Positions 26,903 to 43,660 of a stretch of 64,000 nucleotides of DNA are shown here, piece after piece (position 1 is the stretch's first letter; the number at the start of each line of letters is the position of its first letter). The translations under genes were made by a program, and so were the position numbers. This DNA is from Methanomassiliicoccaceae archaeon DOK. Its GTDB lineage: Archaea > Thermoplasmatota > Thermoplasmata > Methanomassiliicoccales > Methanomethylophilaceae. A model generated the notes under the pieces. The model was given only the letters and a program-made list of their open reading frames with translations. It did no database searches and was not told the origin of the DNA. The stretch is taken from NCBI GenBank assembly GCA_009911715.1, contig CP047880.1, positions 1,116,001-1,180,000 of the forward strand, given 5' to 3'.

Positions 26903-29557
26903 ATGGATGCCAAACTCAGGATGATCGCCCTGGCAGTCATCCTGTCCCTTACCCTTCTCGGGGCCGGGGCATTGCTCACCGGCGGGGAGGAGTCGGACGC
27001 CCTGTCGGGCGACGACCTCGACTCGACGAGCTCTGTGGTGTTCCACGACACCGGCTCCGACACCGAGAAGTGGCTCGTGAAGACGGGGAGCGACATCATC
27101 CTCCCGGGCAACCTGTTCGAACACGACGGCTACTACCTGTCCGAGTGGGCGATAGGAAACACAGCTAGCTCTGACACACTGGCCGTCGGCGAGGAGTACA
27201 CCGTTGAGGGGGACGTCGAGATTTACGCGGTCTACGACACCGTTCCGAACGACCACGACTACACGCACGCCACAGCCTACGACAGGAACCTCAATGAGAT
27301 GTTCACCTTCGAATGGGAGGTCTTCTCGGGGATCAACAACGCCCCGAGCGGATGGGACATCTTCGACACCGGCGACCTCTACATGAACTACAGCATCGAG
27401 ATCCAGTCCAACGCCGAATGGCTGGAATGGGAGGTCACCAGGGGCTCCTACTACCAGATGGACCCCATAAGCTCCGTCAGGTTCTACGGTGAGCCCGAAC
27501 CCGGCACGTACTATGTGACTGTCGCACTTGAGAAGACCAGGATGCTCACTGGGACGCTCCACGACAGCTCCTACATCTACTTCGAGCTGTACGTGCCCAC
27601 CGACGGCGACGACATCTATACCATCAGCTACACCACCGAGGGGGCCTCCGGGAGCATCCCCAACGAATCCGCCTACTACAACACGGCGATCTACCTCCCC
27701 ACCGGCGAAGGGCTGGTGAACGGCGACAACACGCTCGTCGCATGGGAGATCACCGAGCACGACCAGGGTACCGCCTACTACCCCCTCGGGGGATTGTACG
27801 TGGTTACCGAGAGCGTGACGGTCAGGGCGTTATGGGAGCCGAACCCGCACGTGATCATCTACAACCCGCTGGGCGCGGAGGGCGTCACGGGACACGTGGG
27901 GTTCGTCGAGGACATCAGGGAGCTGGACAGCAGCACGACGGCTACGCTCGAAGGCTACGAGTTCGTCGGATGGATCCTCGAGTCGGCACCCGACCAGGTC
28001 TACATGCCCGGCTACACGTTCTCCATGCCATCGGCGGACGTCATGTTCGTCGGATACTGGATACCCGAGGGTGCTGAGACGGTGACCGTCACCTACAACC
28101 CCAACGAGGGCTCGCTCAACGGCATGACGAACGTCCAGAAGGTCGAGCCCGGCACCAGCATCGTCCTTCCGCTGCTGGGGCCCACCAGGGACGGCTACAC
28201 GTTCAACGGATGGGTCACATCGACCGAGGGTTCCGGCAACCACTACGACCCCGGAGACGTGTACGTAGTCCAGGACGATGTGACGCTGTACGCCGACTGG
28301 GTGGAGGACGGTTCGGGTTCCGAGGACCCCGAGGACCCGGTCATCGTGTACCATCAGGTTCTGTTTCTGCCCGGCTCCGAGAGCTCCACATCCTACAACC
28401 CCATGAGCGTGCGCGACGGGTTCACCGTTTCGCAGCCGCTCCCCAACCCCGTGAGATACGACGGCTACGCCTTCAGCTACTGGACCACCGACGAGGGTAG
28501 GTACGACTTCGGCCTCCCGGTCGAGTCGGACATGACGCTCCGCGCCGTGTGGGTGAAGGTGGCCACACTGACCTACGACGAATCGAACCCCTCCAAGGTG
28601 ATCATCACCGCGGAGGACTCCGTGACCACGCTCTACATCGAATGGGGCAACGGGGACACCGACGAGGGGAGGGGAACGTTCGAGTACGACTACGAGGGGA
28701 CCTTCCACGGACAGATTACCATTAGGGTCAAGGACAGCACGACGTCGCAGTCCGAGTGGCCGGTGACCTATCTCGAGGTCCACGCCTACGATGAAACGGA
28801 CTCCGGACTGGTGTCCGACCCGCCAGTCGCCGACATTACCGTCGCCGAGGAGCGCGTGGACATCGACGGCGTCACGTACTGGTACCTCGACGCCTCCGGC
28901 TCGACGCTGGCCGATGAATGGAGATGGTACATCGACGGGTCGCTCATCGCGAACTCCCAGACGTACTGGTACTACGGCACCATAACCCCGGGAGAGCACA
29001 CGTTCTACCTCGTGGTCGAAGGGCCGGGAGGCATCGACCAGACCGAGTTCGGGTTCCTGGTCGAGGAGCCCGACCCGGAGGACCCCACGGACCCGGGCGA
29101 GCCGGACCCCGACGACCCCAATACCGACCCCGACGACCCGTCGACGGATCCGGGGGACCCCTCCACGGACCCCGACGACCCCGTGCTCAATCCCGACGAC
29201 CCCGAGAACCCCGACAATCCGAGCGGTTTGACCGCCGTCATCACCATCACGAAGACCGAGAACGGGTACAGGTTCAGCGCCGCCGACTCCACAGGCGATC
29301 CGCAGTACTGGATCTGGACCCTTGACGGGGAGACCGAGATCGGCACCGAGGAGGTTGTCGAATACATCGGCCAGCTGGAGGACGGATGGCACACCATCTC
29401 GCTGGTCATCTACGACGCCGAGGACAACTGGGTCGACACCGAGGAGGATTTCCTAGTCGGGGACTCAGGCTCCGACTTCAAGCTCTACTATGTCGTTCTC
29501 GTCATCCTGCTGGCCCTTGTCGTCCTCATTGTCCTCAAGCTCAGAGGGGTGATATGA
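26903..29557 (+). CDS. InlB-repeat/PKD surface protein with Asp-Pro stalk
   Basis: 884 aa. Signal peptide (about 10-30), several Flg_new-type repeats, a PKD-like domain near residue 640 ('PPVADITVAEERVDIDG'), a low-complexity D-P-(D/E)-D-P stalk (about 722-775), a second PKD-like domain and one C-terminal membrane helix followed by a short basic tail. The stalk resembles wall- or S-layer-spanning spacers. One base separates it from the upstream stop; it overlaps the next gene by ATGA. Confidence 0.8.
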   Translation: MDAKLRMIALAVILSLTLLGAGALLTGGEESDALSGDDLDSTSSVVFHDTGSDTEKWLVKTGSDIILPGNLFEHDGYYLSEWAIGNTASSDTLAVGEEYTVEGDVEIYAVYDTVPNDHDYTHATAYDRNLNEMFTFEWEVFSGINNAPSGWDIFDTGDLYMNYSIEIQSNAEWLEWEVTRGSYYQMDPISSVRFYGEPEPGTYYVTVALEKTRMLTGTLHDSSYIYFELYVPTDGDDIYTISYTTEGASGSIPNESAYYNTAIYLPTGEGLVNGDNTLVAWEITEHDQGTAYYPLGGLYVVTESVTVRALWEPNPHVIIYNPLGAEGVTGHVGFVEDIRELDSSTTATLEGYEFVGWILESAPDQVYMPGYTFSMPSADVMFVGYWIPEGAETVTVTYNPNEGSLNGMTNVQKVEPGTSIVLPLLGPTRDGYTFNGWVTSTEGSGNHYDPGDVYVVQDDVTLYADWVEDGSGSEDPEDPVIVYHQVLFLPGSESSTSYNPMSVRDGFTVSQPLPNPVRYDGYAFSYWTTDEGRYDFGLPVESDMTLRAVWVKVATLTYDESNPSKVIITAEDSVTTLYIEWGNGDTDEGRGTFEYDYEGTFHGQITIRVKDSTTSQSEWPVTYLEVHAYDETDSGLVSDPPVADITVAEERVDIDGVTYWYLDASGSTLADEWRWYIDGSLIANSQTYWYYGTITPGEHTFYLVVEGPGGIDQTEFGFLVEEPDPEDPTDPGEPDPDDPNTDPDDPSTDPGDPSTDPDDPVLNPDDPENPDNPSGLTAVITITKTENGYRFSAADSTGDPQYWIWTLDGETEIGTEEVVEYIGQLEDGWHTISLVIYDAEDNWVDTEEDFLVGDSGSDFKLYYVVLVILLALVVLIVLKLRGVI

Positions 29558-31482
29558 TGGATTCCAAGCAGAGAAGGCTCGTCGCGTTCGCATGCGCGCT
29601 GATGGTGATGGCGGTGCCCTGCATCGCCGTCATGGAGTCCGAGGAGGAAGAGAACGAGGTCGACGCGTTCGTCCCGGTCGTCATACTCGTCGGTTGGGAG
29701 GTCTGGGCGGTCACCGCCGCCTGGATAGGCACAGTCGTGGCCGCGTACGTGGCTGGCGACTACTTCGACCTGATAAACAGCGACTACGAAGGCGACTACG
29801 CACGCAGCCAGGAGGCGCAACTTGTGGCCAGGTCCATCTCCGACGGTTTGGCCCACTACGCCAACGCCCTCGAGAACTACGCCAACATTTGGGACCTGAC
29901 CGCCGAGCACTGGATACGCCAGGCGGAGATAACCGCGGCGGCTATCTGGCCGTACATGGACTCCTACGACGTCAACCAGCTCCTGTTCGAGTCCGGAGTC
30001 TACGTGAACTCGTCCGACATGATGAGCAACGCGACAGCCCAGATCAACACCCACTTCGCCCAGATGGTGAACCACGCGGCGGAGTGGAACAGTCTCGAGA
30101 ACACCGCCACCTACGGGGACGGTCTCATGAAGATCGTGTTCCGCTACGGCTTGAGTTCCATCTCCGCCGACGGAGCTGATGCGGCCGGTGGGGACTTCAG
30201 AGCCAACATCGGATTGGTGGCCAATGACGTGACCGACTCGTCCAACCGCTTCTACTTCGGAGGCGGTTCGATCTACTCCTCCGTCCAGAACGCGGTGATA
30301 ACGGACATCGACGACCCGTCGAAGTCCTACCGTCTGGACAAGGGATGGAACGAGATAGGCGATCTCAGCGACGAGGACGTCGCGGGCATCTACGCCGCAT
30401 CCTCCGGGGTCACCTACGCCGGGGACATCCTCCCGTGCCGCGGGTCCTACGCCACCGACGTCTATGCCGGCATCATCATAGAGAGCGGCGGCAACTCCGA
30501 GATTCTGACCTACGTGGACGGCCACCTGGAGACGTCCACGGGATACAGGGTGAACGACCTGGAGATAGTCGTCCAGCCGGACAACTCCTCCGACGAGGTC
30601 GCGACAGACCTCATGGTAGCCCTGGAGAACTACGACCTGCTCCTCAACTCCGTCATAAGCACCATGTACCAGGCGGACTCCGCGGCCCACGCCGTGTGGA
30701 ACATCTACGACAAGAACGGGGAGGCGTCCGCCTACCTGACGACGCTGATGGTCCCGGAGAACTACGAGGAGTTCAACATCAACGAGCAGTGGCTGGAGGT
30801 GATTACCGTGCTGGCCATGCAGCAGCTCGCCAGCTACGCCCAGGCGCACAGCGGCGACATCGACCTGAGCGAGTACGTGATGACAATGAACTCGCTGGAC
30901 CTGTACTGCCGCGGCACCATAGAACTGCCGATGACCCAGGCCGACGGCGAGGCGGGAATCACCGAGAAGGCGATGTACGAGGACGTGGTGTTCACACCCA
31001 TCTTCTACCGCGACGTGACCCTCGAGAAGGGGGAGAACGACCTGTCCGGGTTCACCGGATACGTGGCGATCTGGGGGGACGGAACGGATCTAGGGAACCT
31101 CGACACGATGGACATGGCGAACGCGTCCATCGTGTTCATGGATTCGGGGTCGACCATGGAGATTACCCAGATCATGTACCAGGGCAACATGGTGGACAAC
31201 GTGTCCCTCCATGTCGAGGAGATAGACATCATCGACCCCCAGAAGATGCAGGACTACGACCCGGTCGAACCCCCCGTCTACAACGACACGGGGGAGCTCA
31301 TCCGCACGATCATGCTCATCATCGGACTTCTGATGATGGTCTACGGCGTCACTTCGAGGAACTGGCTGATAATCGTGCTGGGGCTTCTGATAGTCGCCAT
31401 CGGGTGGATAGCGTCGGAACCGATCGAGAACTTCCTATGGGACCGCTTCGAATACAAGTTCGTGTGGCCCAGGAACAGCTGA
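29554..31482 (+). CDS. Large membrane surface protein of unrecognised family
   Basis: 642 aa (ATG 29554, or 29557 with better ribosome-binding spacing). Signal-like segment (about 12-30), a second hydrophobic segment (about 42-65), a long helical ectodomain ('EAQLVARSISDGLAHYANALENYANIW'), a beta-rich part with Asn-linked sequons, and two C-terminal membrane helices with a short exposed tail 'FEYKFVWPRNS'. No InlB repeats, so it differs from its neighbours. With the 4-TM protein after it, it resembles the spike plus small-membrane-protein pairs of enveloped archaeal viruses, by layout only. Confidence 0.65.
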   Translation: MMDSKQRRLVAFACALMVMAVPCIAVMESEEEENEVDAFVPVVILVGWEVWAVTAAWIGTVVAAYVAGDYFDLINSDYEGDYARSQEAQLVARSISDGLAHYANALENYANIWDLTAEHWIRQAEITAAAIWPYMDSYDVNQLLFESGVYVNSSDMMSNATAQINTHFAQMVNHAAEWNSLENTATYGDGLMKIVFRYGLSSISADGADAAGGDFRANIGLVANDVTDSSNRFYFGGGSIYSSVQNAVITDIDDPSKSYRLDKGWNEIGDLSDEDVAGIYAASSGVTYAGDILPCRGSYATDVYAGIIIESGGNSEILTYVDGHLETSTGYRVNDLEIVVQPDNSSDEVATDLMVALENYDLLLNSVISTMYQADSAAHAVWNIYDKNGEASAYLTTLMVPENYEEFNINEQWLEVITVLAMQQLASYAQAHSGDIDLSEYVMTMNSLDLYCRGTIELPMTQADGEAGITEKAMYEDVVFTPIFYRDVTLEKGENDLSGFTGYVAIWGDGTDLGNLDTMDMANASIVFMDSGSTMEITQIMYQGNMVDNVSLHVEEIDIIDPQKMQDYDPVEPPVYNDTGELIRTIMLIIGLLMMVYGVTSRNWLIIVLGLLIVAIGWIASEPIENFLWDRFEYKFVWPRNS

Positions 31483-32102: not shown

Positions 32103-32345
32103 ATGGCATCTCTGACCACAGTTGCGACTGGAATAGTCGGGGCTGTCTTCTGTATTGTGCTTTTCGCATGGTCCGGATACGACTTGGAAGCCACGCTATC
32201 GTTCCTCCATGGCAACTGGTCCACCGTTCTGCTCGCCATACAGGTGATGGTCGTCTACGTCCTAGCCGCGTCCGGCCACAGGCTTGGTGGACTGATAGTG
32301 CTAGGCACCGCCATGGTGACGATCATGGGCAAGGTGATCGCATGA
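32103..32345 (+). CDS. Small membrane protein (80 aa)
   Basis: 80 aa with three hydrophobic segments ('TVATGIVGAVFCIVLFAW', 'STVLLAIQVMVVYVLAASG', 'LGGLIVLGTAMVTIMGKVIA'). Its stop overlaps the next start by ATGA, so it is probably made together with the next membrane protein. Confidence 0.6.
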   Translation: MASLTTVATGIVGAVFCIVLFAWSGYDLEATLSFLHGNWSTVLLAIQVMVVYVLAASGHRLGGLIVLGTAMVTIMGKVIA

Positions 32346-33223
32346 CAGACTGGGTGACGCTCATGTTGCCTTTCGCCACGGTCGCTCTGGCACTGGCCAG
32401 CTATTTCATCGGCATACGCGTCCGTGATGCGGCGCATTGCATGGTTCCGCTCAACGACCCCGTGTCAGTGACGCTGCTCACCGTGTCGTGCGTAATGCCA
32501 GTGCTCATGTGGACCTTGTTCGATGTCCCATTCTCCAGCGACGTCTGGATACAGTACGCCGCACTGGCCGTCGGCTTCTGGGGCGGGTACTTGATCGGCT
32601 ACTGCTCCGTGGGAGCCGATGTGGTGTACATCAGCGTCCACGACATCGTGGAGCGCACCCAGGACGTCTACCCTATAGTCCGCTACAGGAACCGCGAGGG
32701 ACGCCAATGCTGGCAGCCCCAGTCCTTTCGCAAGATATGCCGTTCGATGATTTTCCACATCGACAACCCATTGGACCTCTCCGCGGTCCAGCGCACACGT
32801 CGTGTGACGTGCAAGCAGGCGTACCATATGGTCAATGAGGCCGATGCTATAGACGTGGCCGGAATGCAGGTAGAGGAGTACGACCGCAAACTGTGGAGAT
32901 TCAACTGCCGCATCGAATTCAGGCACTACACGCCGGTTCCCTATTGCACCGACGCCCCGTACGACTGGATCCTCAACGCGAACAAATATGAGGACCTCTT
33001 CATGGAATACGCCAGGCTCCAGACGTCGGCGATAGATTCCGCCGCCGAACTCAACGTGGCGATGGTCAAGGGCGGAGGCCTCGCGCTGTCTGCGATGGCA
33101 TCGAAGAACCCAGATGAACTTTTCATGAAGGAACTGGGCATCCGCCTGGAGGACATGGTCTCCGACAGGGCTAGAGAGAGGCGCGCCGCCAATAGGCGGG
33201 CCATGGAGGAGGCTGACGAATGA
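32342..33223 (+). CDS. Membrane protein with large cytoplasmic domain
   Basis: 293 aa. Three N-terminal membrane helices (about 5-25, 42-62, 70-90) followed by a 200-residue soluble domain ('VVYISVHDIVERTQDVYPIV...') and a basic helical C-terminus ('RARERRAANRRAMEEADE'). ATGA-coupled on both sides, three genes upstream of the P-loop ATPase; may dock that ATPase at the membrane. Family not recognised. Confidence 0.65.
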   Translation: MTDWVTLMLPFATVALALASYFIGIRVRDAAHCMVPLNDPVSVTLLTVSCVMPVLMWTLFDVPFSSDVWIQYAALAVGFWGGYLIGYCSVGADVVYISVHDIVERTQDVYPIVRYRNREGRQCWQPQSFRKICRSMIFHIDNPLDLSAVQRTRRVTCKQAYHMVNEADAIDVAGMQVEEYDRKLWRFNCRIEFRHYTPVPYCTDAPYDWILNANKYEDLFMEYARLQTSAIDSAAELNVAMVKGGGLALSAMASKNPDELFMKELGIRLEDMVSDRARERRAANRRAMEEADE

Positions 33224-34137
33224 ACGTCGAACCCCGTCCGATCATCCACCCGATACCAGACGATAACACCTCCGAGGCCATCATGTACGGTCCGGCGTAC
33301 AAATACGCCAAGTCGTCCAAATGGTATCTTGACGAACTGGAGGAGAACGCCGACGCACGTGTCGAGGAGCTCATCGACCAGATCATCGACCTGGAATGGG
33401 CGGCCATGGTGATGAACCGCAACCCCGGACTCATCTTCGCCAGGAACCCGCCTGTTTCGAATCCCGACAAGATACGTGATCTGTGGACGCTCCGCCAGAT
33501 CGTCAACTACGGTTCGTCGAAACCGATGATAGAGGTATTCCGCACCACTTCCCGCCTTTACTCGACGATGCAGGGTGTGGACCAGCACGCCCAGCAGTAC
33601 ATCCGCGAAGGCGTCACCGAGCCCCTGTGGAAATCCGCCACGATAGGGTTCAACGTGCCGATCGAGTACGAGACAGTCCGCACGATCAAGAATCTGGAGT
33701 ACCGCACATCCGTGGACGGCCTTGAGGCTTACTACTACGACATGGACTCAGACGAACGGAGACGTGAAGCCGACAGGATAGAAAAAGAGGCGAGGGACTA
33801 CGCCAGGTCATTCGACGACGGGGACGAGGTGGAACCTAGATCCGTGCCGGAGTTCGACATATACCGCGAATACGACGTAGCCGACGAAGTATCAGACGAT
33901 GATGTCACTTCGGACGACTACTGGACGGATGAGCCCTCCGATGAGGAGATATACGTCCCCGTGCCGTCGTCACCGCTCTTCGATGCGGTGATCAACATTG
34001 CATACTGGCTCTCATACAATCCGGTGCACGACTTCCTCATAGCTTTGGAGGAGTTCGCCGAAATATTGCCTCGGCCGGAGATACAGGCCACGACGTCCGT
34101 ACTCTCCAAGTTCAGGTCCATGGGGGCGAGGACATGA
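33220..34137 (+). CDS. Helical protein upstream of the ATPase
   Basis: 305 aa, mostly helical, with an acidic stretch around residues 200-245 ('DYWTDEPSDEEIYVPVP') and an amphipathic C-terminal segment. No signal peptide. ATGA-coupled to both neighbours. Likely part of the same membrane/ATPase complex; family not recognised. Confidence 0.6.
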   Translation: MNVEPRPIIHPIPDDNTSEAIMYGPAYKYAKSSKWYLDELEENADARVEELIDQIIDLEWAAMVMNRNPGLIFARNPPVSNPDKIRDLWTLRQIVNYGSSKPMIEVFRTTSRLYSTMQGVDQHAQQYIREGVTEPLWKSATIGFNVPIEYETVRTIKNLEYRTSVDGLEAYYYDMDSDERRREADRIEKEARDYARSFDDGDEVEPRSVPEFDIYREYDVADEVSDDDVTSDDYWTDEPSDEEIYVPVPSSPLFDAVINIAYWLSYNPVHDFLIALEEFAEILPRPEIQATTSVLSKFRSMGART

Positions 34138-34502
34138 CCGAGGCACACGACTCCAAGGCGTTGCTCTACAAGGACACCGTGCAGCCGATGAACCAGGCGT
34201 ACAACGAACTCCTGGCCTTCTACAGCCAGGGGGACACCCGCGCCGCGTATCTGAAGACGTTCGAGCTCGCACTCTCGCTGAACTGCCCGAACAGGATGCT
34301 GTGGCAGTTCCCGGAATACAAGCAACTGGAGGCGAAAGCACCGTTGCCCAAGGACCCGCGCATCCGCATCGACCCGGACCAGTTCTACAACTACATGATG
34401 GTCTACGAGCAGGTGATGCGCGAAGTCGGGCTGATCGACAAGGATCCGATGGAAATCCAGAAAGTACAGATGGTGGGCCTCTTCGACATGGGGGATGAAT
34501 GA
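34134..34502 (+). CDS. Small helical protein
   Basis: 122 aa, predicted all-helical ('QAYNELLAFYSQGDTRAAYLKTFELALSL'), possibly TPR-like pairing in the middle. Coupled by ATGA to the ATPase gene, suggesting a stoichiometric partner. Confidence 0.6.
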   Translation: MTEAHDSKALLYKDTVQPMNQAYNELLAFYSQGDTRAAYLKTFELALSLNCPNRMLWQFPEYKQLEAKAPLPKDPRIRIDPDQFYNYMMVYEQVMREVGLIDKDPMEIQKVQMVGLFDMGDE

Positions 34503-35878
34503 TGGACGAATCGCTGGACATGTACTTCGCATCAGTGTTTAGGCCCGGTTCCGTGCTGCTCACAAGCGGTTTCAAGGGAGGCGGCAAGTCGCACACCGCC
34601 GTGGCCATAGGCGAACGCCTGGTGAAAGGCTGCTACCCGTCCGTGGGAAAGGTTGTGATGGTCACTAACATGATCTTCTTCCACAAGGTCAACGGCCAGA
34701 TAGTCGAGGAGCCCCCTCCTGGAGTGTACCACATCACGACGATGATGGAGCTCTTCCCGCTGATAGTCGATATCATCGAGGAGCACGGGCGCGATGTAGT
34801 CATACTGATGGTCTTGGACGAGGCTCAGAACTTCGTGGGAGGTGACAGCAACCAGACCAACGCATCAGTCATGATGAAGGAGTTCCTGGGGACAATCAGG
34901 AAGTTCCGTCTCGTTGTCTGGTTTCTCACACCTTCGGCAAAAGGCATCGGCCCCGCGTTCAGGAACTTCCTCAACGATCCGAAGTACCCTGGCAACCTCA
35001 CATGCAAGCTCAAGAAAGACCTTGCCGCCAACCAACGGTACATCGAGGCCAACCGCCTTCCGTACAAGCCGCGCGAACTGATGCTTATCAAGGCGTACGA
35101 TTCGGAGCCCAGGTTCCTGCGCGTGCCCGTCACCGAATGGACGGGGACACTGGACACGCTGGTGGAGGGCGGTTATTGTTACGATCACGAGGCGTCGGCG
35201 ACGTTCTACGTCGGCGACGGATTCGACTGGGAGAAGTTCAACCGTACGATCGGCGGAGTTTCATCCGTGAACGTGCTGAATACGATCCGCTCGTACTACG
35301 CCGCGAACCATCCCGACGGAGTGGGTTCTGGAACGGCTCCGGTTCCGAAACCGGAAATGGTTAGGAGACTCACACAGGTCGAGATTGCCGTCAACATGCT
35401 CAACAAGGGGATGTCCGAGAGAGACGTCGCCGAGAAGGTGGGGCTTACTCGTAACGCGCTGCGTTACCGCATCGAATCGGCTGGATATGTCCGGGTGTGT
35501 CAACAGACGTCGAAAGGTGTCGAGAAGTGTTGGTTGCTTTCCGATAACGACAATCGTTGTATACAACCGCAAACGGATGTAGCCAGCGTCGGTGGTGGTT
35601 GTTTGAAGAAGGGTGGTTTTTCGTCCCCTATATATATCTCTAGGGAAACCCCGGAAAATCACGGCATTCATGGTTCTCTAAGAACCAAACCGGTTCCTTC
35701 CAAGGGAACTTCTGACCCGTCCTCTTCTGGTGATGGCGACCCGTGCCGCGACACATCACACCATCCCTCTTCCGACGCTAACGAACACGTCGGGGATTCG
35801 CGCCGCATCCCCGACGGAAGATATTCTGTAGACGAGTTGGCAGAGGCGGTGCACTGGTGCATAGGAGGAGGTACATGA
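34499..35878 (+). CDS. Zot/HerA-like P-loop ATPase with C-terminal HTH
   Basis: 459 aa. Walker A 'GFKGGGKS' (residues 24-31), Walker B 'VILMVLDEAQ' with Asp107-Glu108, and a polar strand 'LVVWFLTPSA' about 40 residues later. A helix-turn-helix lies near 293-326 ('SERDVAEKVGLTRNALRYRIESAG'); the tail is Ser/Pro-rich and disordered. Such enzymes drive DNA packaging, export or virion assembly at membranes (Zot/gpI, FtsK/HerA superfamily). It lacks the size and extra domains of VirB4 or TraG/VirD4. The preceding coupled membrane and helical genes are natural partners. ATGATG start overlaps the upstream stop. Confidence 0.75.
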   Translation: MMDESLDMYFASVFRPGSVLLTSGFKGGGKSHTAVAIGERLVKGCYPSVGKVVMVTNMIFFHKVNGQIVEEPPPGVYHITTMMELFPLIVDIIEEHGRDVVILMVLDEAQNFVGGDSNQTNASVMMKEFLGTIRKFRLVVWFLTPSAKGIGPAFRNFLNDPKYPGNLTCKLKKDLAANQRYIEANRLPYKPRELMLIKAYDSEPRFLRVPVTEWTGTLDTLVEGGYCYDHEASATFYVGDGFDWEKFNRTIGGVSSVNVLNTIRSYYAANHPDGVGSGTAPVPKPEMVRRLTQVEIAVNMLNKGMSERDVAEKVGLTRNALRYRIESAGYVRVCQQTSKGVEKCWLLSDNDNRCIQPQTDVASVGGGCLKKGGFSSPIYISRETPENHGIHGSLRTKPVPSKGTSDPSSSGDGDPCRDTSHHPSSDANEHVGDSRRIPDGRYSVDELAEAVHWCIGGGT

Positions 35879-36822
35879 GGTTCGGAAGACAGAAAGATCC
35901 GGACATTGTGGTTGTCCGGAGGAAATTGAGGACATACAGGATACCCGTAGATGAAGATGGATTAGTGCCCGACTGGGCCCTGGTGTCGAGATTCCAGGAG
36001 AAGGGGCGGTGGAACGACCTTGAGGACGGCTCCCAGATAGTGGTCCCTTCGGGACGCACACCAAAGGAGATCGTTGATTGGTGGGCCAACCCGTCGCTGT
36101 ACGATATCGACGGCATAGACACACCGGACAGCCCGTACTACGACGTTTCAAGCGTGCCGGAGAACCAGAAACGTGTCCAGCGCAAGATTGCCGTGCTGGC
36201 CGACAGGGACGAACAGGCACGCATCCGTCACATCCTGGCCGAATCGTTCACAGTGGACGAGCTGGAAACCATGACGAGGAACGGAAGCTTCGTCATCCGC
36301 ACTGTCCCCAGCATGGGCGACGCCACAGGCTGCTATTTCCGCAAGCAGAACGGCGTGGAGATCCCGCTAATAGTGCTGGAGAGGAACACCACGCCCGACG
36401 GCGTGGTTCACGAGGTGGTGCATCACATACGCGCTGTCGATCCGGACAGAAGAGGCATTCTCCGCACATCCTACCCCAGCACCAGAAAAGGCCGTCTGAA
36501 GGACTGGACATTCGACCACATGCCCAAGCGCCGTCAAGACAGGATCCTGGAGGAAGAGGAGAGATTGACAGTCGCCGAGACCGTCGCCAGAACGAGCCTG
36601 GACAGGAGCCAGTCCGGGTACTACGACGGCGTGCGCGGGATGGATCCGCGCGACGCATACCTGGCAGACAGGTATATTCTCACCGACACGGACCCGGATA
36701 TTCCCCAGTCCGAGGTACCGAGGCTCAAGGGGAGAGCTGCGCGCGTGGCCGTGCTTCACGGCTACGACGCATCACTCATCGGACGCGCAGAAATCCTTTC
36801 GAGGAACGTACGCAAGAGGTGA
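35875..36822 (+). CDS. Putative metallopeptidase with N-terminal DIxGID module
   Basis: 315 aa. Residues about 20-84 form the module 'VDEDGLVPDW...PKEIVDWWANPSLYDIDGID' found also in the genes at 41886, 42893 and 44092. The second domain has His179-Glu180-Val-Val-His183, a zincin motif, followed by 'LTVAETVART' whose Glu235 is a candidate third ligand. The paralogue at 44092 keeps both motifs with similar spacing. Basic C-terminus. Start 35875 overlaps the ATPase stop and has GGAGGAGGT before it. Predicted zinc peptidase, possibly processing co-encoded proteins; the substrate is inferred only from context. Confidence 0.65.
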   Translation: MRFGRQKDPDIVVVRRKLRTYRIPVDEDGLVPDWALVSRFQEKGRWNDLEDGSQIVVPSGRTPKEIVDWWANPSLYDIDGIDTPDSPYYDVSSVPENQKRVQRKIAVLADRDEQARIRHILAESFTVDELETMTRNGSFVIRTVPSMGDATGCYFRKQNGVEIPLIVLERNTTPDGVVHEVVHHIRAVDPDRRGILRTSYPSTRKGRLKDWTFDHMPKRRQDRILEEEERLTVAETVARTSLDRSQSGYYDGVRGMDPRDAYLADRYILTDTDPDIPQSEVPRLKGRAARVAVLHGYDASLIGRAEILSRNVRKR

Positions 36823-36897: not shown

Positions 36898-37674
36898 ATG
36901 CCCAGAGAGTATTCCAACCTGGAGTATCGGAACTCCATCGACCAGATCAACCAGAGGAACCGTGACCTCGAAGACAAGCTGGCCGACCAGGACAGACTGA
37001 AGAAAGAGATGAGGAAGGCCAACGCGAAGCAGCGCAAGCTCAACCGCCGCAACGCGAAGAACAGAGCCAAGGAGGCAATCCAGGCCACTGGGTGGACTGG
37101 CCCCGCGCTTATAGTCCTCAACGAGAAGAACCAGCAGATCGGCTACGTTAGTGAAGGCAGGATATACACCTCGGTCAACGGCCCCAGACCTCAATCGAAC
37201 CTGGCCCATCCCAACGTGGCATCCCGCAATGTCAAGCAGTCGTGGACCCTCCCTGATTGCGAAATCCAGGAGGTCCCCATGGGCAACGGGGCCAAGTGCT
37301 TCGACGTATACATGAAGAAGGGTGGACACACCCGTGTCCAGCGCCTGTATCCGCTCAGTCTTGAAGAGGAGGAGGCGGTCATCAAGGCGCTCAAGAACGG
37401 GGCATCTCCTGTCGCCAACGCATGGGACGACGGGAGGGGCGTGCCGATCTCATGGGAGAACGCAACCCCTATGGGCGGACCAAGGGCCGGTTCCAAATCC
37501 AGCAAGTGCATCAAGAAGAAGCCCACCGACAAGCCCAAGCCGAAGCAGACCTCTCAGGCGAACTCCTGTATCAAGAAGAAGCAGAAACTGCCCCAGAAAC
37601 CCGCTTCGAAGCCGGCCCAGCCCAATCAGCGCAGGAAATCCGCCAACGTATCGAATAACAAGGCAAGGAGGTAA
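36898..37674 (+). CDS. Basic protein with Cys/Lys repeat tail
   Basis: 258 aa. N-terminal coiled coil (about 10-60, 'RNRDLEDKLADQDRLKKEMRK'), central beta-rich domain, then a strongly basic tail (about 200-258) with two S-x-C-I-K-K-K units and 'KPAQPNQRRKS', closely similar to the tail of the next protein. Likely nucleic-acid or virion-interior associated. A short ORF (36830-37000) with a fair ribosome-binding site overlaps its 5' end and may couple it to the upstream gene. Confidence 0.65.
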   Translation: MPREYSNLEYRNSIDQINQRNRDLEDKLADQDRLKKEMRKANAKQRKLNRRNAKNRAKEAIQATGWTGPALIVLNEKNQQIGYVSEGRIYTSVNGPRPQSNLAHPNVASRNVKQSWTLPDCEIQEVPMGNGAKCFDVYMKKGGHTRVQRLYPLSLEEEEAVIKALKNGASPVANAWDDGRGVPISWENATPMGGPRAGSKSSKCIKKKPTDKPKPKQTSQANSCIKKKQKLPQKPASKPAQPNQRRKSANVSNNKARR

Positions 37675-37678
37675 GGCG

Positions 37679-38149
37679 ATGGGCGACTACAACGGATGGG
37701 CGAACCGTCCGACATGGGCGCTGTACACCGGCATCACCAGCTACGAGACGGAGTTGAAACGCGTCAGGGGATGGTTCTCCCAGGCGGCTGCCCAGCGCCT
37801 TACGTACGACGACGCTGTTGATCTGGCAGCTGAACGCCTGGAGGACAAGGTCTACGACCTCTACGACAGAGCACTCTACCAGGCCAACCCGGTCATCCGC
37901 GACATGCTCATCCATCCTCCGAACGAGACCGCCGTGGACTACCAGCGGATAGTGACGATGATCGTCGGCAAGAACGACTACGAAAAGCTTCTGCCCGCCA
38001 GTGCCAGACAGTCCGATGCCTGTATCAGGAAGAGACAGAAGCATGCTCATCAACCTGCTCAGTCGAACCAAGAGAGGAAATCCAAACCGAGGGACGTCGA
38101 GGGACAGCTCACCTGCAAGCCAAAGGGTTCCGCCGACAGGAGGCATTGA
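37679..38149 (+). CDS. N-G-W-x-N-x-P-T-W domain protein with basic Cys tail
   Basis: 156 aa. The N-terminus 'YNGWANRPTWALYTGI' matches a motif common in small phage proteins of the NGWxNxxTWxVxLW type; a helical domain follows to about residue 105. The C-terminal 50 residues are basic with 'DACIRKRQK', 'PAQSNQERKS' and 'KPRDVEGQL', units shared with tails of neighbouring proteins. The start at 37679 follows a GGAGGTAAG ribosome-binding site. Confidence 0.65.
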   Translation: MGDYNGWANRPTWALYTGITSYETELKRVRGWFSQAAAQRLTYDDAVDLAAERLEDKVYDLYDRALYQANPVIRDMLIHPPNETAVDYQRIVTMIVGKNDYEKLLPASARQSDACIRKRQKHAHQPAQSNQERKSKPRDVEGQLTCKPKGSADRRH

Positions 38150-38150
38150 C

Positions 38151-38555
38151 ATGGCCACGTACACGGCAGATGTGAGCATCATGCTCCGCAACGTAAGGAT
38201 CGAGGCCGACTCCGAGACAGAGGCAGAGAGACACATAGAATTCGCTATCGGGGACTGGCTGGACGACTTCGTCCCACTGGACCCGGAAGGAAGCAGGGTC
38301 GACGTCTCCAACATCGACGAGGACGATGACTACGCAGAGGATTGGAACCGCAGATCCAGGACCAGCTCCAACGGATGCAAAACCGGTACTAGGCAGTGCA
38401 GGGGCGGGACATCCAACAATCGCAGGCCTGTCCACGGATCGAAACCACGTTCCTGCAACGCATCGAAATCCCCGAAGAGGAGTTGCAACAGACAGCCGAG
38501 GGACGTCAACGGGAGGTTCGTCAAGAAACCGAGGAACGGGGGCGGAAGGAGATGA
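38151..38555 (+). CDS. Small domain plus Cys/Arg-rich tail with PRDxNGRFxKKP motif
   Basis: 134 aa. Residues 1-60 form a beta-alpha-beta-like acidic domain ('YTADVSIMLRNVRIEADSETEAERHIEFAIGDW'). The rest is a Cys, Ser, Arg and Lys-rich tail ending 'PRDVNGRFVKKPRNGGGRR'. The tail motif recurs in the genes at 37679 and 39265, whose N-terminal domains are unrelated. Suggests a shared targeting or nucleic-acid-binding tag. Confidence 0.6.
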   Translation: MATYTADVSIMLRNVRIEADSETEAERHIEFAIGDWLDDFVPLDPEGSRVDVSNIDEDDDYAEDWNRRSRTSSNGCKTGTRQCRGGTSNNRRPVHGSKPRSCNASKSPKRSCNRQPRDVNGRFVKKPRNGGGRR

Positions 38556-39283
38556 TCGACAACTTCGGGGGAAGGCTCGGAAGGCTCATCGTCCAGGAGG
38601 ACCCGGAGCACTGGGAGGACGTACTCAGTGAATTAGTCACAAGCGGGATGACCAAGACCCAGGCGGTAAACGAGCTCAGAGGTTTCCTCGCATCGGGGGC
38701 AAGCGGTGCCGCCACCCGTGTCCGCGGAAGCAGTCTGGAGAAGCATCTCGCACAGCTGGGAGCCCAATGCTACGCCGAGTCCTCTGATTCGAGGAACGAT
38801 GCCAAGAGCTTGGTCGACGCCAACTGGGAAGCCTACAAGTCGGAGGCCGAGAGGAAATCCACGAAGCCTAAGGCTTCGAGGAACGTGTCGTCCGGCGTCA
38901 TCCGTTCGCTAGCCAATGAGATCGCCGACCTCATGTACTACTCGGATGACAGGAGGTACGGACGCTTCGACACATGGGACGAGGGCATCGGACGCATCCA
39001 GGACCTTCTCAATACGAAATCCGGAAGGGACGAACTCGTCGCCTACATGCAGAGATGCATCGATCAGGACTCATTCAGCAGCGATGACGCCGAATCCGCA
39101 TCACAGCTGATCGGGGAGATACGCTCGATTGGGAGCGCTATGTCCGACGCCTATAGCAAGAAGACATCGAAGAGGTCCAAGACCCAGACGATCCGGAACC
39201 GCTCCAGGACCGAGAAGCCCACCGGCAATCCGGGGAAGACTTCCGGTGACAGCAGGAGGCGCCGATGCCGACAATCCCCCTGA
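38552..39283 (+). CDS. Helical protein with basic tail
   Basis: 243 aa, helical throughout ('PEHWEDVLSELVTSGMTKTQAVNELRGF'), with a Lys/Arg/Thr-rich tail from about residue 198 ('KKTSKRSKTQTIRNRSRTEK'). ATGA-coupled to the previous gene. Family not recognised; tail composition links it to its neighbours. Confidence 0.6.
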   Translation: MIDNFGGRLGRLIVQEDPEHWEDVLSELVTSGMTKTQAVNELRGFLASGASGAATRVRGSSLEKHLAQLGAQCYAESSDSRNDAKSLVDANWEAYKSEAERKSTKPKASRNVSSGVIRSLANEIADLMYYSDDRRYGRFDTWDEGIGRIQDLLNTKSGRDELVAYMQRCIDQDSFSSDDAESASQLIGEIRSIGSAMSDAYSKKTSKRSKTQTIRNRSRTEKPTGNPGKTSGDSRRRRCRQSP

Positions 39284-39693
39284 AAACAGTCTCCGAACTT
39301 TACCGGAAGGCGTCGAATAAGCGGGACTGGTGGCACAACGGCGGTCGTGACTACTCCGCGTACATGTTCGCGGACGGCCAGTTCCTACTGGCGCACGACG
39401 GATCGGTCATCTTCGACTACGACCCACGCAAGGGCACGTATGCCGTGTCAGGCTCGACACCGGCGGACCGCGACGCCATCGATTCGATGTTCCGCATACT
39501 CGGGATCAGAGATGCGGCGTCGAACCTCAACGGTCCGATCTCGCTGAAGAACGGGCGCGTGCAGGGGAGATTGGCATCCCAGAACAAGCCCTCCAGGCCG
39601 TCGGCCAAGCCTACATCGTCCAGGAACAGGCCCAGGAAGGCCAACGGGCAGTTCGCCAAGAGACCGGGACAGTCTCAGAACAGGAGAAAGTGA
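39265..39693 (+). CDS. Small domain plus PRKxNGQFxKRP tail
   Basis: 142 aa. The N-domain (1-90) is beta-rich ('YMFADGQFLLAHDGSVIFDYD'); the tail (about 100-142) is basic and ends 'RPRKANGQFAKRPGQSQNRRK', matching the tag in the gene at 38151. It overlaps the upstream gene by 19 nt; the start has AGGAGG in good position. Confidence 0.65.
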   Translation: MPTIPLKTVSELYRKASNKRDWWHNGGRDYSAYMFADGQFLLAHDGSVIFDYDPRKGTYAVSGSTPADRDAIDSMFRILGIRDAASNLNGPISLKNGRVQGRLASQNKPSRPSAKPTSSRNRPRKANGQFAKRPGQSQNRRK

Positions 39694-39694
39694 C

Positions 39695-40369
39695 ATGGTC
39701 AGTATCAGCAAGAAACTGGCCCAGATGGGCTACGACCTGTTAACGGACATGCGCGCCATGCACCATGATGGCGAGATGCACTACGTCGTCGGTACCGACG
39801 GCAAAGGCTACGTGGTTTTCCGGGCGGCACCCGTTGGCAAGGACGTCTCTCTGTCCGCGATCTCATGGTACGCGAACCTGGAGAACGCAGTCTCCTACGC
39901 CCACGATCTGACGGAATGGTGGAAAGCCTACGGCTCCGCCGAACCAGACAGGTTGTGGGGCGGATACTCCGACGACAAGAAGGTTAAGGATGACCGTCCG
40001 AAGGCATTCGGGAACAGAAGAGGGAGCAGCGGCCACCTGGCCGGGAACTACTCCAAGAGGCCCAAGCAGAAGGTCGGCAGCAACTCGGCCCCCAATCTCG
40101 CCTTCCGCTTGGTGAACCTCTACCGCAGCGTCGACCCGTACGAGTTCGAAGACCAGTACGGGAACGATCTTCAGCGGGCCTTCAGCGACACACTCGCCGG
40201 ACTGTCGACACCAGAAGGCGTCGATGCCGCCATAGGCGTCCTGGATGACATCGACAGGCTGGACGACCCCGACATGGAGAGGGAGCGCGTCGCCCTCAGG
40301 TACGAACTGATGAGCCTCCACCAGGAAATGGGGCCCGTAGGCTCAAGGAACAGGAGGTCCAGGAGATGA
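39695..40369 (+). CDS. Protein with central basic linker, unknown
   Basis: 224 aa. N-terminal alpha/beta domain ('MHYVVGTDGKGYVVFRAAP', to about 85), a basic linker ('NRRGSSGHLAGNYSKRPKQKV', about 108-130), then a helical domain ('AAIGVLDDIDRLDDPDMERERVALRYELMSL') and a short 'SRNRRSRR' end. Not recognised. Confidence 0.6.
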   Translation: MVSISKKLAQMGYDLLTDMRAMHHDGEMHYVVGTDGKGYVVFRAAPVGKDVSLSAISWYANLENAVSYAHDLTEWWKAYGSAEPDRLWGGYSDDKKVKDDRPKAFGNRRGSSGHLAGNYSKRPKQKVGSNSAPNLAFRLVNLYRSVDPYEFEDQYGNDLQRAFSDTLAGLSTPEGVDAAIGVLDDIDRLDDPDMERERVALRYELMSLHQEMGPVGSRNRRSRR

Positions 40370-41130
40370 AATGGGACCGCGACAGTTACGAGAAGGCCAA
40401 CTTCGACCTCGGAGTGCTGGGGACGGGACTGGCAGTCGCTTCCCTGGCTCTGGCACTGAACAAGAAGAGCGGCTCCAGACGGAATCCCGACACCGCTTTC
40501 AAGTTCAGGAAGGTCCGCAACCAGGGCCGCTGGGTTCTCGGCGATTCGGATTGCGAGAATCCGTACTGGTTCGAGGCCGAATCAAGCCCTGATGGAAGGA
40601 TCGTCGTCGTATGGAGTCTCGGCATAGGCCAGAAAGAGGTCCGCGGCGTCTACGATGCGCCGGACATCAAGACGGCGGCGATAATGGCCGAGAACATAGT
40701 CACCGACCACGTCCCAACGTTCTGGATTCCGGAAATGAGGCCCTACAAGCGTAGCTTCAAGGACGATTGGTACGAGGAGGGCATGGGGCCGAACTGCCCC
40801 AACTGCGGGGCGTATGAGCAAGTCCGCGGTCTCGGAGAGAGAGGGCTGTACGTATGCTTGAGGTGCGGATGTGCCTTCGACCGCGACAGGGAACGGATCA
40901 TTTGGGACAGATGGGACCATGATGCGTTCGACAGGTACCGCAAGGAGACCGAGTCGAAGCGCTCCGAGACCTACTCCAGAGGGTGTATGCCCATCGGCGT
41001 CACCGAATCTGGACACCGCGCCTACGTCACGCCCGAGGCCTTTGACTCCCTGCACTACTCGCTGCTGGTCGATTACGATAACCCGAAAGACAGGAGACGC
41101 ATCCTATCCTTCTCCAGGAGGGGACGTTGA
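40366..41130 (+). CDS. Membrane-anchored zinc-ribbon protein
   Basis: 254 aa. One N-terminal hydrophobic segment ('LGVLGTGLAVASLALALN', about 15-32), a beta domain, then a zinc ribbon with CPNC and CLRCGC knuckles (about 144-168), and a basic C-terminus 'FSRRGR'. ATGA-coupled to the preceding gene. Could tether to the membrane while binding a partner. Confidence 0.6.
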   Translation: MKWDRDSYEKANFDLGVLGTGLAVASLALALNKKSGSRRNPDTAFKFRKVRNQGRWVLGDSDCENPYWFEAESSPDGRIVVVWSLGIGQKEVRGVYDAPDIKTAAIMAENIVTDHVPTFWIPEMRPYKRSFKDDWYEEGMGPNCPNCGAYEQVRGLGERGLYVCLRCGCAFDRDRERIIWDRWDHDAFDRYRKETESKRSETYSRGCMPIGVTESGHRAYVTPEAFDSLHYSLLVDYDNPKDRRRILSFSRRGR

Positions 41131-41131
41131 C

Positions 41132-41941
41132 ATGAGGACTGTACCGATCTACAAACGTCCCCGCAACCCACACTTCCCGGAGACACTACCCATCCCCAGG
41201 AAGGGGTTCATCTATCATGGCGAGTACTTCAAGACGCTGGGGGACGCCCGCTATCTGAGCGACTGCGGCCCCAGCGGAGTGTACACGGCCGACGGCGTTG
41301 ACGACATAGGTCGTCCGTGCCGCTATTACTTCGATGTGAGCTACCGCGACATAGATGCGGCGAAGAACGGGAAGCTGTTGTGGGGCAGGTCGTTCTCGGA
41401 CATGGAGCGCCTCTCCGACGCGGCGTGGGAGACCCGCGCCAGGAAGGGCACGTTCAACATCGATCCGACCTTGGAGCCGTCCGACGTCCGTTCGATGGAT
41501 TACCTCCGCGACTTCTACACGACCAGATACCCATGGACGGCACCGTATCTGAATGATCCGGAGGTGTGGTCCTGGATATGCGACTACTACGGATACCTGG
41601 CATGGAACGAGCACGGAAACCAGCCGTCGCTGGTCGAGGACGCCGGAGAGGGCTACATGGCGTCTCTGGTCATGGATCTGGTGAGGTCGTGTGATTCTAA
41701 CTACACCTACTATCTGACGAACGGCGGAGACGTCGATTCGCTAGACGATACTGAACGCTCACTGCTCGACAGGCGTGTTGGGATCCAGAAGAGGTACGGC
41801 GTGAAGCCGGACTGGAAGGTACCCCGCAACATGCGTTCCGGGAAGTCACGTTCGATGAACAAACGTTCGTTCTGGAGGCGTCGATATGTTCCGCATCGTG
41901 AGGAAACGCGACGGTCCGTCCGTACGCATCCTCGTCGATGA
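41132..41941 (+). CDS. Hypothetical protein with very basic C-terminus
   Basis: 269 aa. Aromatic-rich globular part ('LRDFYTTRYPWTAPYLNDPEVWSWICDYYGYL') and a C-terminal 35 residues dominated by Arg/Lys ('SGKSRSMNKRSFWRRR'). Overlaps the next gene by 56 nt, so the tail coding doubles as the next gene's start region. Confidence 0.6.
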   Translation: MRTVPIYKRPRNPHFPETLPIPRKGFIYHGEYFKTLGDARYLSDCGPSGVYTADGVDDIGRPCRYYFDVSYRDIDAAKNGKLLWGRSFSDMERLSDAAWETRARKGTFNIDPTLEPSDVRSMDYLRDFYTTRYPWTAPYLNDPEVWSWICDYYGYLAWNEHGNQPSLVEDAGEGYMASLVMDLVRSCDSNYTYYLTNGGDVDSLDDTERSLLDRRVGIQKRYGVKPDWKVPRNMRSGKSRSMNKRSFWRRRYVPHREETRRSVRTHPRR

Positions 41942-42896
41942 TGACGGCTACGTACCTTTCGAAGAGATGGGAGCTAGGCACCATGCTCGTCCGCTGCGCG
42001 CGCAGCGCATGGACGATCTCAGGACATCGATGGTGGTCGAGAGCCGTTTCATCACCCCAGATAAGGCTGTCGCATGGTGGACTAACCCCGGAAGGTCCGA
42101 TATCGAGGGCATCGACGCCCCCGCAAAACAGCAGATTATCATCCCGCCGGCGAAGGCTGACGTGAGTAGCCTTGGAGGGTTCTTCTCCGGACTAATGCCT
42201 AGTAGGTCCACCTATGGCGACCTTCCATGGCTGTCCGATCTAGAGCTGGCCGAAGCCATGGCCAGGAACGGGGGCCTCAGACCCGGGATGGCCAGGGCGT
42301 ACGCGGACGGCTCGTATGACGAATTTTACAGACATTTCATGGGAGGAGAAGAGATGGATTCTTTCAACAGGAGATGCGGAAGTGGGCCCCTGGCCCGCCA
42401 CGCGTCATACTCTACGGACTCCTCATCGTACTTCTACAGCCAGGAGACAGGCAAGAACTACACGGCGACGCCCCAGGGCATCGACATGTACGCCGACGAC
42501 CTGGCCCGGAAGCAGGATGGGGTTGACAGGGACGGGCTCAAAAGCCACGTCCGTAACATGATGGATGACACCAGAGTGATCAGATCGCACGGAGCCCACG
42601 ACGTGCTCCGTGTGGGCGGTTCCAATTTCTCGAAGGACCGCAAAGCACCGATAAGGTCCAACAACCCCCGGCGCGACTCCAGACCCGCCTTCGCATCGGC
42701 TGAGACAGGCGCGGAGTACCCACTCACCACAGCCGGGATAAAGCAGTACCTAGAGGACTACGAAGAATGGATTGGTGTGCTCACAGGACGCACGGAGATT
42801 GCGAAACGTCTGAAGAATATGCTACCTCCAGTGCCCGGCTACGCCGTGGACGTGGATATCGCCGATCTGCACGATTCGCTGGAGGTGCTGAGATGA
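41886..42896 (+). CDS. DIxGID-module protein
   Basis: 336 aa. Residues 13-79 carry the shared module ('LVDDDGYVPF...PDKAVAWWTNPGRSDIEGIDAP'). The remainder is helical, with 'FSSGLMPSR'-type low-complexity and a C-terminal 'YLEDYEEWIGVLTGRTEIAKRL' helix. No HExxH. GGAGGCG lies 8 nt before the ATG. Probably a cargo protein of the same module family; function of the body unknown. Confidence 0.6.
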   Translation: MFRIVRKRDGPSVRILVDDDGYVPFEEMGARHHARPLRAQRMDDLRTSMVVESRFITPDKAVAWWTNPGRSDIEGIDAPAKQQIIIPPAKADVSSLGGFFSGLMPSRSTYGDLPWLSDLELAEAMARNGGLRPGMARAYADGSYDEFYRHFMGGEEMDSFNRRCGSGPLARHASYSTDSSSYFYSQETGKNYTATPQGIDMYADDLARKQDGVDRDGLKSHVRNMMDDTRVIRSHGAHDVLRVGGSNFSKDRKAPIRSNNPRRDSRPAFASAETGAEYPLTTAGIKQYLEDYEEWIGVLTGRTEIAKRLKNMLPPVPGYAVDVDIADLHDSLEVLR

Positions 42897-43660
42897 GCAA
42901 GAGGAAGACTGAGAAGATCCCGACGGATGCGGACGGTTTCGTGAACCCGGACTATCTGATCGAGTTCGAATCCAAACGCAACCAGAAGTCAAGACTGACT
43001 GATGAAATGAAGATCGCCGGCACAGTGTTCGCCCCTCTAGTGACTGTCAAGCAGGCGGGGCAGTGGATGAACCGTCCCAACAGATACGACATCGCAGGCA
43101 TAGACGCCCCGATGGAGGTCGCCAACGTTCCCGTGGGAGGGTTCCCCCGGAAGAAGAAAAAGAGGGTCAGGCATCCAAACGGCCCCACATACTCCCAGGC
43201 GTTCTGGGACTCCCTGGACTGGGAGAACGATCCCGTCGGTGCATCGAGAATGGCCGCCATGGCCATGGAGGTGGAAAAACACGGACTCACAGAGGACATG
43301 CGTGCGCTCCTTGAGGACGACGCTTATGGCGAGGTCATGGGCTCAGACCGCTGGAAACGCGACGACAGGGCAGCCGCGGAAGCCTACAGGAGGCACATGC
43401 TCTCCGACATGGGGATGATGGACTCCGCCAACCGTAGACACGCGTCCTTCGGTAGGAAACCGTACGAATGGGAGAAGCTCGCCGGCAACGTGTACACGAT
43501 CCATGACGCCGAAGGTGACTACATCGACGTCACGAAACTAAAGGAGAAGGGCCCGGGATGGTTCGCTTGCGCGAACGCATGGGGTCTTCCGTACACCAAG
43601 TTCAAGACGAAGGAGGAGGCGATGGACTTCGCCGAATCGCTGATGGGGATGGGAAGATGA
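42893..43660 (+). CDS. DIxGID-module protein
   Basis: 255 aa. The module sits at the extreme N-terminus (9-73: 'IPTDADGFVNPDYL...QAGQWMNRPNRYDIAGIDAP'), immediately followed by 'RKKKKRVRHP'. The helical body ends in 'WFACANAWGLPYTKFKTKEEAMDFAESL'. ATGA-coupled to the preceding module protein. Confidence 0.6.
   Translation: MSKRKTEKIPTDADGFVNPDYLIEFESKRNQKSRLTDEMKIAGTVFAPLVTVKQAGQWMNRPNRYDIAGIDAPMEVANVPVGGFPRKKKKRVRHPNGPTYSQAFWDSLDWENDPVGASRMAAMAMEVEKHGLTEDMRALLEDDAYGEVMGSDRWKRDDRAAAEAYRRHMLSDMGMMDSANRRHASFGRKPYEWEKLAGNVYTIHDAEGDYIDVTKLKEKGPGWFACANAWGLPYTKFKTKEEAMDFAESLMGMGR

Follow-up and report, generated by a model that had tools for sequence, protein, structure and literature searches.

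Shared basic C-terminal tails on unrelated small proteins of a putative pleolipovirus-like provirus of Methanomethylophilaceae

This article deals with small proteins of unrelated build that end in similar, strongly basic tails and are encoded by a putative provirus in the genome of Methanomassiliicoccaceae archaeon DOK. The DNA analysed, here called the window, comprises 64,000 nucleotides (nt), i.e., bases 1,116,001–1,180,000 of the one contig (CP047880.1; 1,889,135 bases) that makes up the genome. Disordered basic tails rich in Lys, Ala, Pro and Ser are a familiar feature of the histone H1 C-terminal domain and of bacterial H1-like proteins. Histone H1, however, is one architectural protein, whereas the tail to be discussed here sits on many unrelated ones.

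The closest working analogy is the set of internal proteins of phage T4, where the capsid targeting tag is N-terminal and removed by a protease. These are described as many unrelated small proteins that share one short capsid targeting sequence and counter host defence, and contacts of Lys with DNA are reported (PMC3012670). As in T4, unrelated bodies share one tag and might be passengers of a particle, packaging being a proposal in our case. Unlike T4, a tailed phage with a protein capsid, the element resembles an enveloped virus, and its extension is C-terminal, long and of low complexity. An HExxH protein encoded in the tailed operon may be compared with the maturation protease that removes the T4 tag.

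Polyvalent proteins of phages and conjugative elements, which are thought to travel with the invading DNA (PMC5512222), have in common with the tailed proteins a metallopeptidase motif and an accessory counter-defence role, the latter presumed here. They are, however, long multidomain fusions, whereas we see separate bodies with a common disordered tail: Instead of several fused effector domains, the tailed proteins are short and, as far as scanned, contain at most one Pfam family each above the curated cut-off. Pfam scans of 19 window proteins yielded no family of the polyvalent-protein kind at E ≤ 1.

As to the virus, VP4-like proviruses have been found in Methanomassiliicoccales, as stated in PMC10919331 with reference to Medvedeva 2023. 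In gene order the element resembles HRPV-1 and His2 of the Pleolipoviridae, with a predicted VP4/VP5-like fusogen (the spike), small membrane proteins, a membrane protein of about 300 amino acids (aa) and an ATPase with a helix-turn-helix (HTH) domain. It differs in size, being about 45 kb long and thus no small genome of the reported 7–17 kb, a descriptive and not a diagnostic trait, and in its tails, which are absent from the proteins of at least 60 aa of HRPV-1 (0/8) and His2 (0/24). What is new is the modular tails, which look like cargo tags, in a kind of virus that is known in other respects.

Basic tails in the window and in related elements

The sharing of tails is real, and it is stronger in relatives of the element than in the window itself. 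Below, G numbers denote genomes (G000 is the DOK genome) and L numbers loci around relatives of the element's ATPase; L026 belongs to G015, L029 with its continuation L063 to G020, and L077, L116 and L117 to G105. The genes concerned are the following:

35875..36822, + strand: HExxH protein (VHEVVHH), a putative metallopeptidase, with a shared N-terminal module and a basic C-terminus
36898..37674, + strand: 258-aa protein, the tail beginning at about residue 199 (nt about 37492-37671)
37679..38149, + strand: 156-aa protein with a DUF7249-like N-terminus, tail from about residue 107 (nt about 37997-38146)
38151..38555, + strand: 134-aa protein, Arg-rich tail with PRDVNGRFVKKP (nt about 38367-38552)
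38552..39283, + strand: 243-aa protein, basic tail (nt about 39146-39280); the ortholog L029:12254 is tailed
39265..39693, + strand: 142-aa protein, tail with PRKANGQFAKRP (nt about 39556-39690), devoid of Cys
39695..40369, + strand: 224-aa protein, short basic end SRNRRSRR
40366..41130, + strand: 254-aa zinc-ribbon-like protein, basic end SRRGR
41132..41941, + strand: 269-aa protein, Arg-rich C-terminus, net charge +10 in the last 30 residues

The original prediction had confined the tails to positions 36898-39693. Its open reading frames (ORFs) at 36898-37674, 37679-38149, 38151-38555 and 39265-39693 were confirmed, 38552-39283 being an additional one, and the tails are present; the span, however, was too short, since basic ends run on to 41941.

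That such ends are unusual is evident from the net charge of the last 30 residues. Five of the eight proteins compared (ORFs starting at 36898, 37679, 38151, 38552, 39265, 39695, 40366 and 41132) reach a value of at least +8 and three of at least +10; the corresponding figures for the host background, 384 ORFs of at least 60 aa from 20 stretches of the same genome, are five and zero. Two other operons of the window are free of basic tails (0/26 at 1–12 kb, 0/13 at 18–34.5 kb).

The likeness was further examined by local alignment of the last 60 residues, compared with 500 composition-preserving shuffles of both tails, and 6 of the 28 pairs aligned at P ≤ 0.05. The tail at 36898 (net charge +9, last 30 residues) has two CIKKK motifs and PAQxNQxRKS; that at 37679 has CIRKR, PAQxNQxRKS and PRDVEGQ. 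The predicted sharing of C-I-K/R-K and PAQxNQxRKS between these two was borne out (P = 0.002), and so was that of PR(D/K)xxG(R/Q)(F/L) among the tails at 37679, 38151 and 39265 (P = 0.002 for 37679/38151, with PRDVxG; 0.004 for 38151/39265; 0.006 for 37679/39265). The remaining two pairs are 37679/38552 (0.014) and 38552/39265 (0.024). As the shuffles keep the composition and the motif pairs still yield P values of 0.002–0.006, the likeness exceeds that of a merely basic composition. In a motif search, [RK]DxxGRF occurs 6 times in 101,989 residues of element loci and C[IR][RKS][KR] 12 times, as compared to 0 and 2 in 118,470 host residues. RDxxGRF is also seen near the N-terminus of other element proteins (L032:8237, L034:11587, L035:7940, L035:9046).

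The bodies are of diverse nature. Residues 3-63 of the protein at 37679 match DUF7249 (PF23907) with a Pfam score of 20.2, under the curated cut-off of 27, and the protein is therefore called DUF7249-like only; its relatives L026:10966, L029:11432 and L029:12712 score 42.6, 32.8 and 41.2, respectively. DUF7249 is widespread in phages (323 records at E ≤ 1 for L026:10966), and none of the five DUF7249 proteins of tailed phages examined, which are 72–84 aa long, has a basic tail; in consequence, the tail is best read as an addition in the elements discussed here. The protein at 38151 has a weak likeness to DpnD-PcfM, under the cut-off, and its ortholog L026:4921 is tailed, the tail containing RDSKGRF. 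In the protein at 39695 the tail is considered to be reduced, because the ortholog L026:2463 carries a full one.

Of 100 related genomes, 17 (counting the own genome) have a relative of the ATPase encoded at 34499 at E ≤ 0.001; they are labelled Candidatus Methanomethylophilaceae, Thermoplasmata, Methanomassiliicoccaceae or Candidatus Methanomethylophilus, and the host is accordingly presumed to be a methanogen. A cassette of membrane protein, two further cassette proteins, ATPase and HExxH protein is conserved across these loci. In G015 (L026) and G020 (L029, L063) it is followed by long runs of ORFs on the same strand, most of which have tails rich in Lys, Pro, Ala and Ser (K 25%, S 17%, A 15%, R 12%, P 10%, acidic residues almost nil). 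Up to 13–14 consecutive tailed ORFs have different bodies, and the like tails on unlike bodies that had been noticed in the window thus recur on many unrelated proteins. The consensus ends are element-specific, KPKSKGVRR in G020 and TKGARR in G015.

Counting ORFs downstream of the ATPase with a net charge of at least +8, one arrives at 14/21 in L026, 15/21 in L029, 3/14 in L063, 4/11 in L028, 5/15 in the window, 2/8 in L030 and 1/4 in L084, and at 0/1, 0/3, 0/4 and 0/3 in L031, L032, L034 and L035, respectively. A third tail-rich element is that of G105 with 6/18 in L117; L077 (2/7) comes from this very region of G105, and of the seven ORFs counted in it six are found on the upstream side of its ATPase. 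In 11 of 14 hand-chosen ortholog pairs the net charge of the last 40 residues is at least +7 on both sides, with identities of 32–64% in the bodies and 20–57% in the tails. A pair that fails is L026:7319/L029:13143, where L029:13143 has an acidic stretch before its basic end.

Ribosome-binding sites in the last codons

Six of the eight genes (36898, 37679, 38151, 39265, 39695, 40366) end with an in-frame AGGAG(G). A terminal RR, GRR, GVRR or GRC is largely the Shine-Dalgarno site of the next gene, placed in the last codons, in the window (36898-41130) as well as in L026 and L029; the last 3–5 tail residues double as that site. In G015 and G020, GxRR is encoded by GGG GTG/GCG AGG AGA TGA, i.e., a ribosome-binding site plus an ATGA overlap of start and stop, or by GGG AGG CGC TGA. 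Because a ribosome-binding site is read in frame there, a translation signal accounts for the terminal dipeptide at least in part. A meaning of the terminal RR alone at the protein level is not supported, since the ribosome-binding site of the next gene encodes it.

Two candidate functions of the ends were affected. Cysteine, originally thought possibly to crosslink or bind metal, had to be abandoned as a common theme: Some tails, such as that of 39265, are free of it, and the ends GRC and RRC in L026 reflect AGG-TGC-TGA, which is ribosome-binding sequence. A conserved terminal sorting peptide KGxRR was weakened by its codons, which are AAG GGG GTG AGG AGA TGA with the ATGA overlap or contain AGGAGG. 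In three of the 15 tailed genes of G020 (12712, 13496, 15623) the end is basic although no ribosome-binding site was recognised in their last codons, and the KGxRR end could therefore still play a role at the protein level.

Of course, the tails might be mostly a by-product: Ribosome-binding sites and stop/start overlaps would yield the terminal RR, tail DNA would have spread by recombination or slippage, and the rest would be low-complexity drift without a selected function. The codons of the last residues speak for it, as they contain AGGAGG or GGGGTGAGG and agree beyond expectation in the last seven positions in L026 (0.86 observed vs 0.61 expected) and L029 (0.68 vs 0.55; in L117, 0.37 vs 0.47), and so do exact stretches of 31–45 nt common to a few tail pairs and the absence of tails from some orthologs. 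Yet coupling does not force basic ends, since none of the 21 coupled genes of the 1–12 kb operon has a basic terminal pair or a tail, and only 6 of 103 coupled host genes have the pair and none the tail. Nor are the upstream codons copied: From residue -30 to -8 the synonymous codon agreement is 0.59 vs 0.57 in L026, 0.62 vs 0.58 in L029 and, for the six L117 tails, 0.33 vs 0.46. Tail codons upstream of the ribosome-binding site thus match no more than local usage implies, and the likeness is therefore mainly one of protein. Charge, moreover, is kept while the tail sequence diverges. The 20–60 residues that precede the terminal dipeptide are alike as proteins, to judge from their codons, and are not produced by the ribosome-binding site; the by-product explanation as a whole appears improbable to us. 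Recent copying of tail DNA is rejected for most tails by the codon test and holds for the few pairs with 31–45 identical nt. The case also calls for care elsewhere: Where the genes of an operon are tightly packed, a conserved C-terminal dipeptide may turn out to be a translation signal.

The same codons bear on another explanation, which takes the tails as signals for a specific receptor, be it the ATPase or a secretion channel, in analogy to C-terminal type IV secretion signals. An element-specific receptor would need just such an end of its own per element as KPKSKGVRR and TKGARR, and the ATPase gene adjoins the operon. The consensus ends, however, are largely ribosome-binding sequence, the tails vary widely in alignment length and sequence, and Pfam scans of window proteins, which covered part of the ORFs, revealed no conjugation gene. 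We give this explanation a small chance.

The pleolipovirus-like element

The genes of the element extend from about window position 85 to about 45889, an integrated region of about 45 kb. Those relevant to its classification are:

29554..31482, + strand: 642-aa VP4/VP5-like putative fusogen (pleolipovirus spike)
32342..33223, + strand: conserved membrane protein of about 293 aa, in a morphogenesis-like cassette
33220..34502, + strand: two conserved cassette proteins (33220-34137 and 34134-34502)
34499..35878, + strand: P-loop ATPase with C-terminal HTH, fold like that of the STIV2 B204 genome-packaging NTPase

The 642-aa protein was modelled from six sequences with low confidence (predicted local distance difference test, pLDDT, 55.4; predicted TM score, pTM, 0.50). 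The top Foldseek match among viral models was HRPV-11 VP4 (E 2.2e-4, prob 1.00, TMq 0.22); against solved structures (VIA), HRPV-6 VP5 (Z 7.4) and HRPV-2 VP5 (Z 6.3) came out on top, the next, unrelated row having 6.1. For the ATPase model (pLDDT 72.6) the best match was B204 of STIV2, a genome-packaging NTPase (E 3.4e-6; TM 0.55 relative to target length). In profile comparisons with pleolipovirus proteins the ATPase reached a probability of 17.5% (E 0.0014) in its P-loop region and the membrane protein 1.7%. Since the best structural matches of the putative fusogen point to pleolipoviruses but sequence profiles do not reach the pleolipovirus proteins, we call the element pleolipovirus-like and not a proved member; by its best matches it would be a pleolipovirus-like provirus of Methanomethylophilaceae. 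The HExxH family was found in 33 of 102 genomes of Methanomethylophilaceae and in 11 of 150 genomes of the class, all 11 belonging to the family of the window.

The data banks had little to add. Pfam, PHROGs, NCBIfam and PADLOC named almost no tailed protein; the six PHROGs families matched among 45 proteins are all without function, and the two matches each of PADLOC and NCBIfam were single weak ones. Neither the ATPase nor the HExxH profile found a relative in IMG/VR, tblastn of the ATPase, the 642-aa protein and L029:12712 against phage records gave nothing meaningful, and sequence searches of solved structures with the HExxH and fusogen profiles gave nothing. A description of such tails was not found in the literature on related terms; Medvedeva 2023 may mention them.

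Some neighbouring features may be added. The ATPase has a second copy in the own genome (L022:14872-15891, i.e., G000:C1 about 117.4–118.4 kb), which is shorter and shows 61% identity over the part that matches. Its locus includes a tRNA-Pro at a distance of about 8 kb, and its neighbours look like a different or decayed element. A module of about 80 N-terminal residues (IPxDxDGxVP ... WWxNPxxxDIxGIDxP) is common to the proteins at 35875-36822, 41886-42896, 42893-43660 and 44092-45420, whose C-terminal parts differ and two of which have HExxH; in L029:10123 the basic tail directly follows this module. The gene at 22660-26901 encodes a 1413-aa surface protein with nine List_Bact repeats, Big_2, He_PIG and a hydrophobic C-terminal end, one of several large surface proteins of the provirus. 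A YqaJ-like viral recombinase (85-939) and a serine recombinase (6072-6917) are also encoded, and outside the element there is a HindVP-type restriction endonuclease (60179-61246). The single tRNA in L053 is a tRNA-Ala about 10 kb from the window start. A comparison of the 5' flank with window 45–56 kb revealed no attachment-site repeat of at least 15 bases, and the exact ends of the element were not found.

A possible DNA tether

The tails are non-random, occur on unrelated bodies within an element, differ in sequence between elements and mostly keep their charge. We tentatively propose, at somewhat less than even chance, that they are histone-H1-like DNA tethers, disordered as judged from composition, which load accessory proteins into an enveloped particle. 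The accessory operon would provide small, mostly single-domain proteins, each with an added disordered extension of Lys, Arg, Pro, Ser and Ala at the C-terminus. Like the H1 C-terminal domain, the extension would bind DNA without sequence preference, hold the proteins on the concentrated viral genome and thereby let them be carried into the budding membrane particle and on to the next host, where the bodies might act in establishment or counter-defence. A receptor would be unnecessary, the DNA itself being the bait. Because the element is virus-like, the reading of the tails to be preferred at present is that they travel into a particle together with the DNA; DNA binding and packaging we infer.

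Among the tailed proteins of G105 there are two DNA methyltransferases, one of the C5 cytosine type (L077:2846-4273) and one of the D12 adenine type (L116:16851-17732). They would fit a protection of incoming DNA. They also suit the idea that the tails act in the producing cell only, as electrostatic anchors to viral DNA under replication, or else to RNA or ribosomes, by which early proteins are gathered in a viral compartment, and have no role in particles. For such anchors an H1-like composition would be adequate, and the tailed genes, which are no part of the conserved ATPase cassette, have the look of accessory ones; the position of the operon directly downstream of a packaging-type ATPase, however, mildly favours particles. 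We consider an exclusively intracellular role unlikely.

Several observations speak against tethering into particles. The particles of pleolipoviruses are described as vesicles without nucleoproteins (PMC5867852), and the fusogen model on which the kinship leans has a pLDDT of 55, its hhalign comparison with HRPV-1 VP4 yielding a probability of 0.2%. In the short elements L023, L025 and L037, which have the same ATPase cassette, no ORF reaches +8 (0/6 each). In two of the ortholog pairs, L026:2463/window 39695 and L026:3305/L029:6461, the tail is not present on both sides, 39695 and L029:6461 being the tailless partners; the protein at window 44092 has a net charge of 0 in its last 40 residues, as opposed to +12, +11 and +12 in L030:12240, L025:7985 and L037:2213. 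Relatives without tails or with unrelated ones, which the original prediction had named as its possible refutation, are thus a mixed lot: Tails are more abundant in the elements of G015, G020 and G105 than in the window, short elements have few or none, and some orthologs are tailless. As tails are found in long elements and hardly in short ones, they are a property of the long elements, not of every element, and as orthologs such as 39695 and 44092 lack them, they are not obligatory.

In its broadest form the DNA tether proposal appears doubtful. It would then imply that large pleomorphic archaeal viruses have a universal, modular H1-like C-terminal cargo tag that any protein can acquire and that loads more than 12 unrelated counter-defence proteins on DNA into a particle without a capsid; the virions, supposed so far to contain naked DNA alone, would have nucleoprotein cargo, and the last codons of the tag would also be a ribosome-binding site. 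If the tail does serve for loading, its fusion to any protein should bring that protein into the particle, and the choice of cargo by vesicle-like archaeal viruses could be tested in a simple manner. The tail would then point the way to unknown counter-defence genes and could be used for the delivery of proteins into methanogens of the gut, and the view of pleolipovirus-type virions as free of nucleoproteins would have to be qualified.

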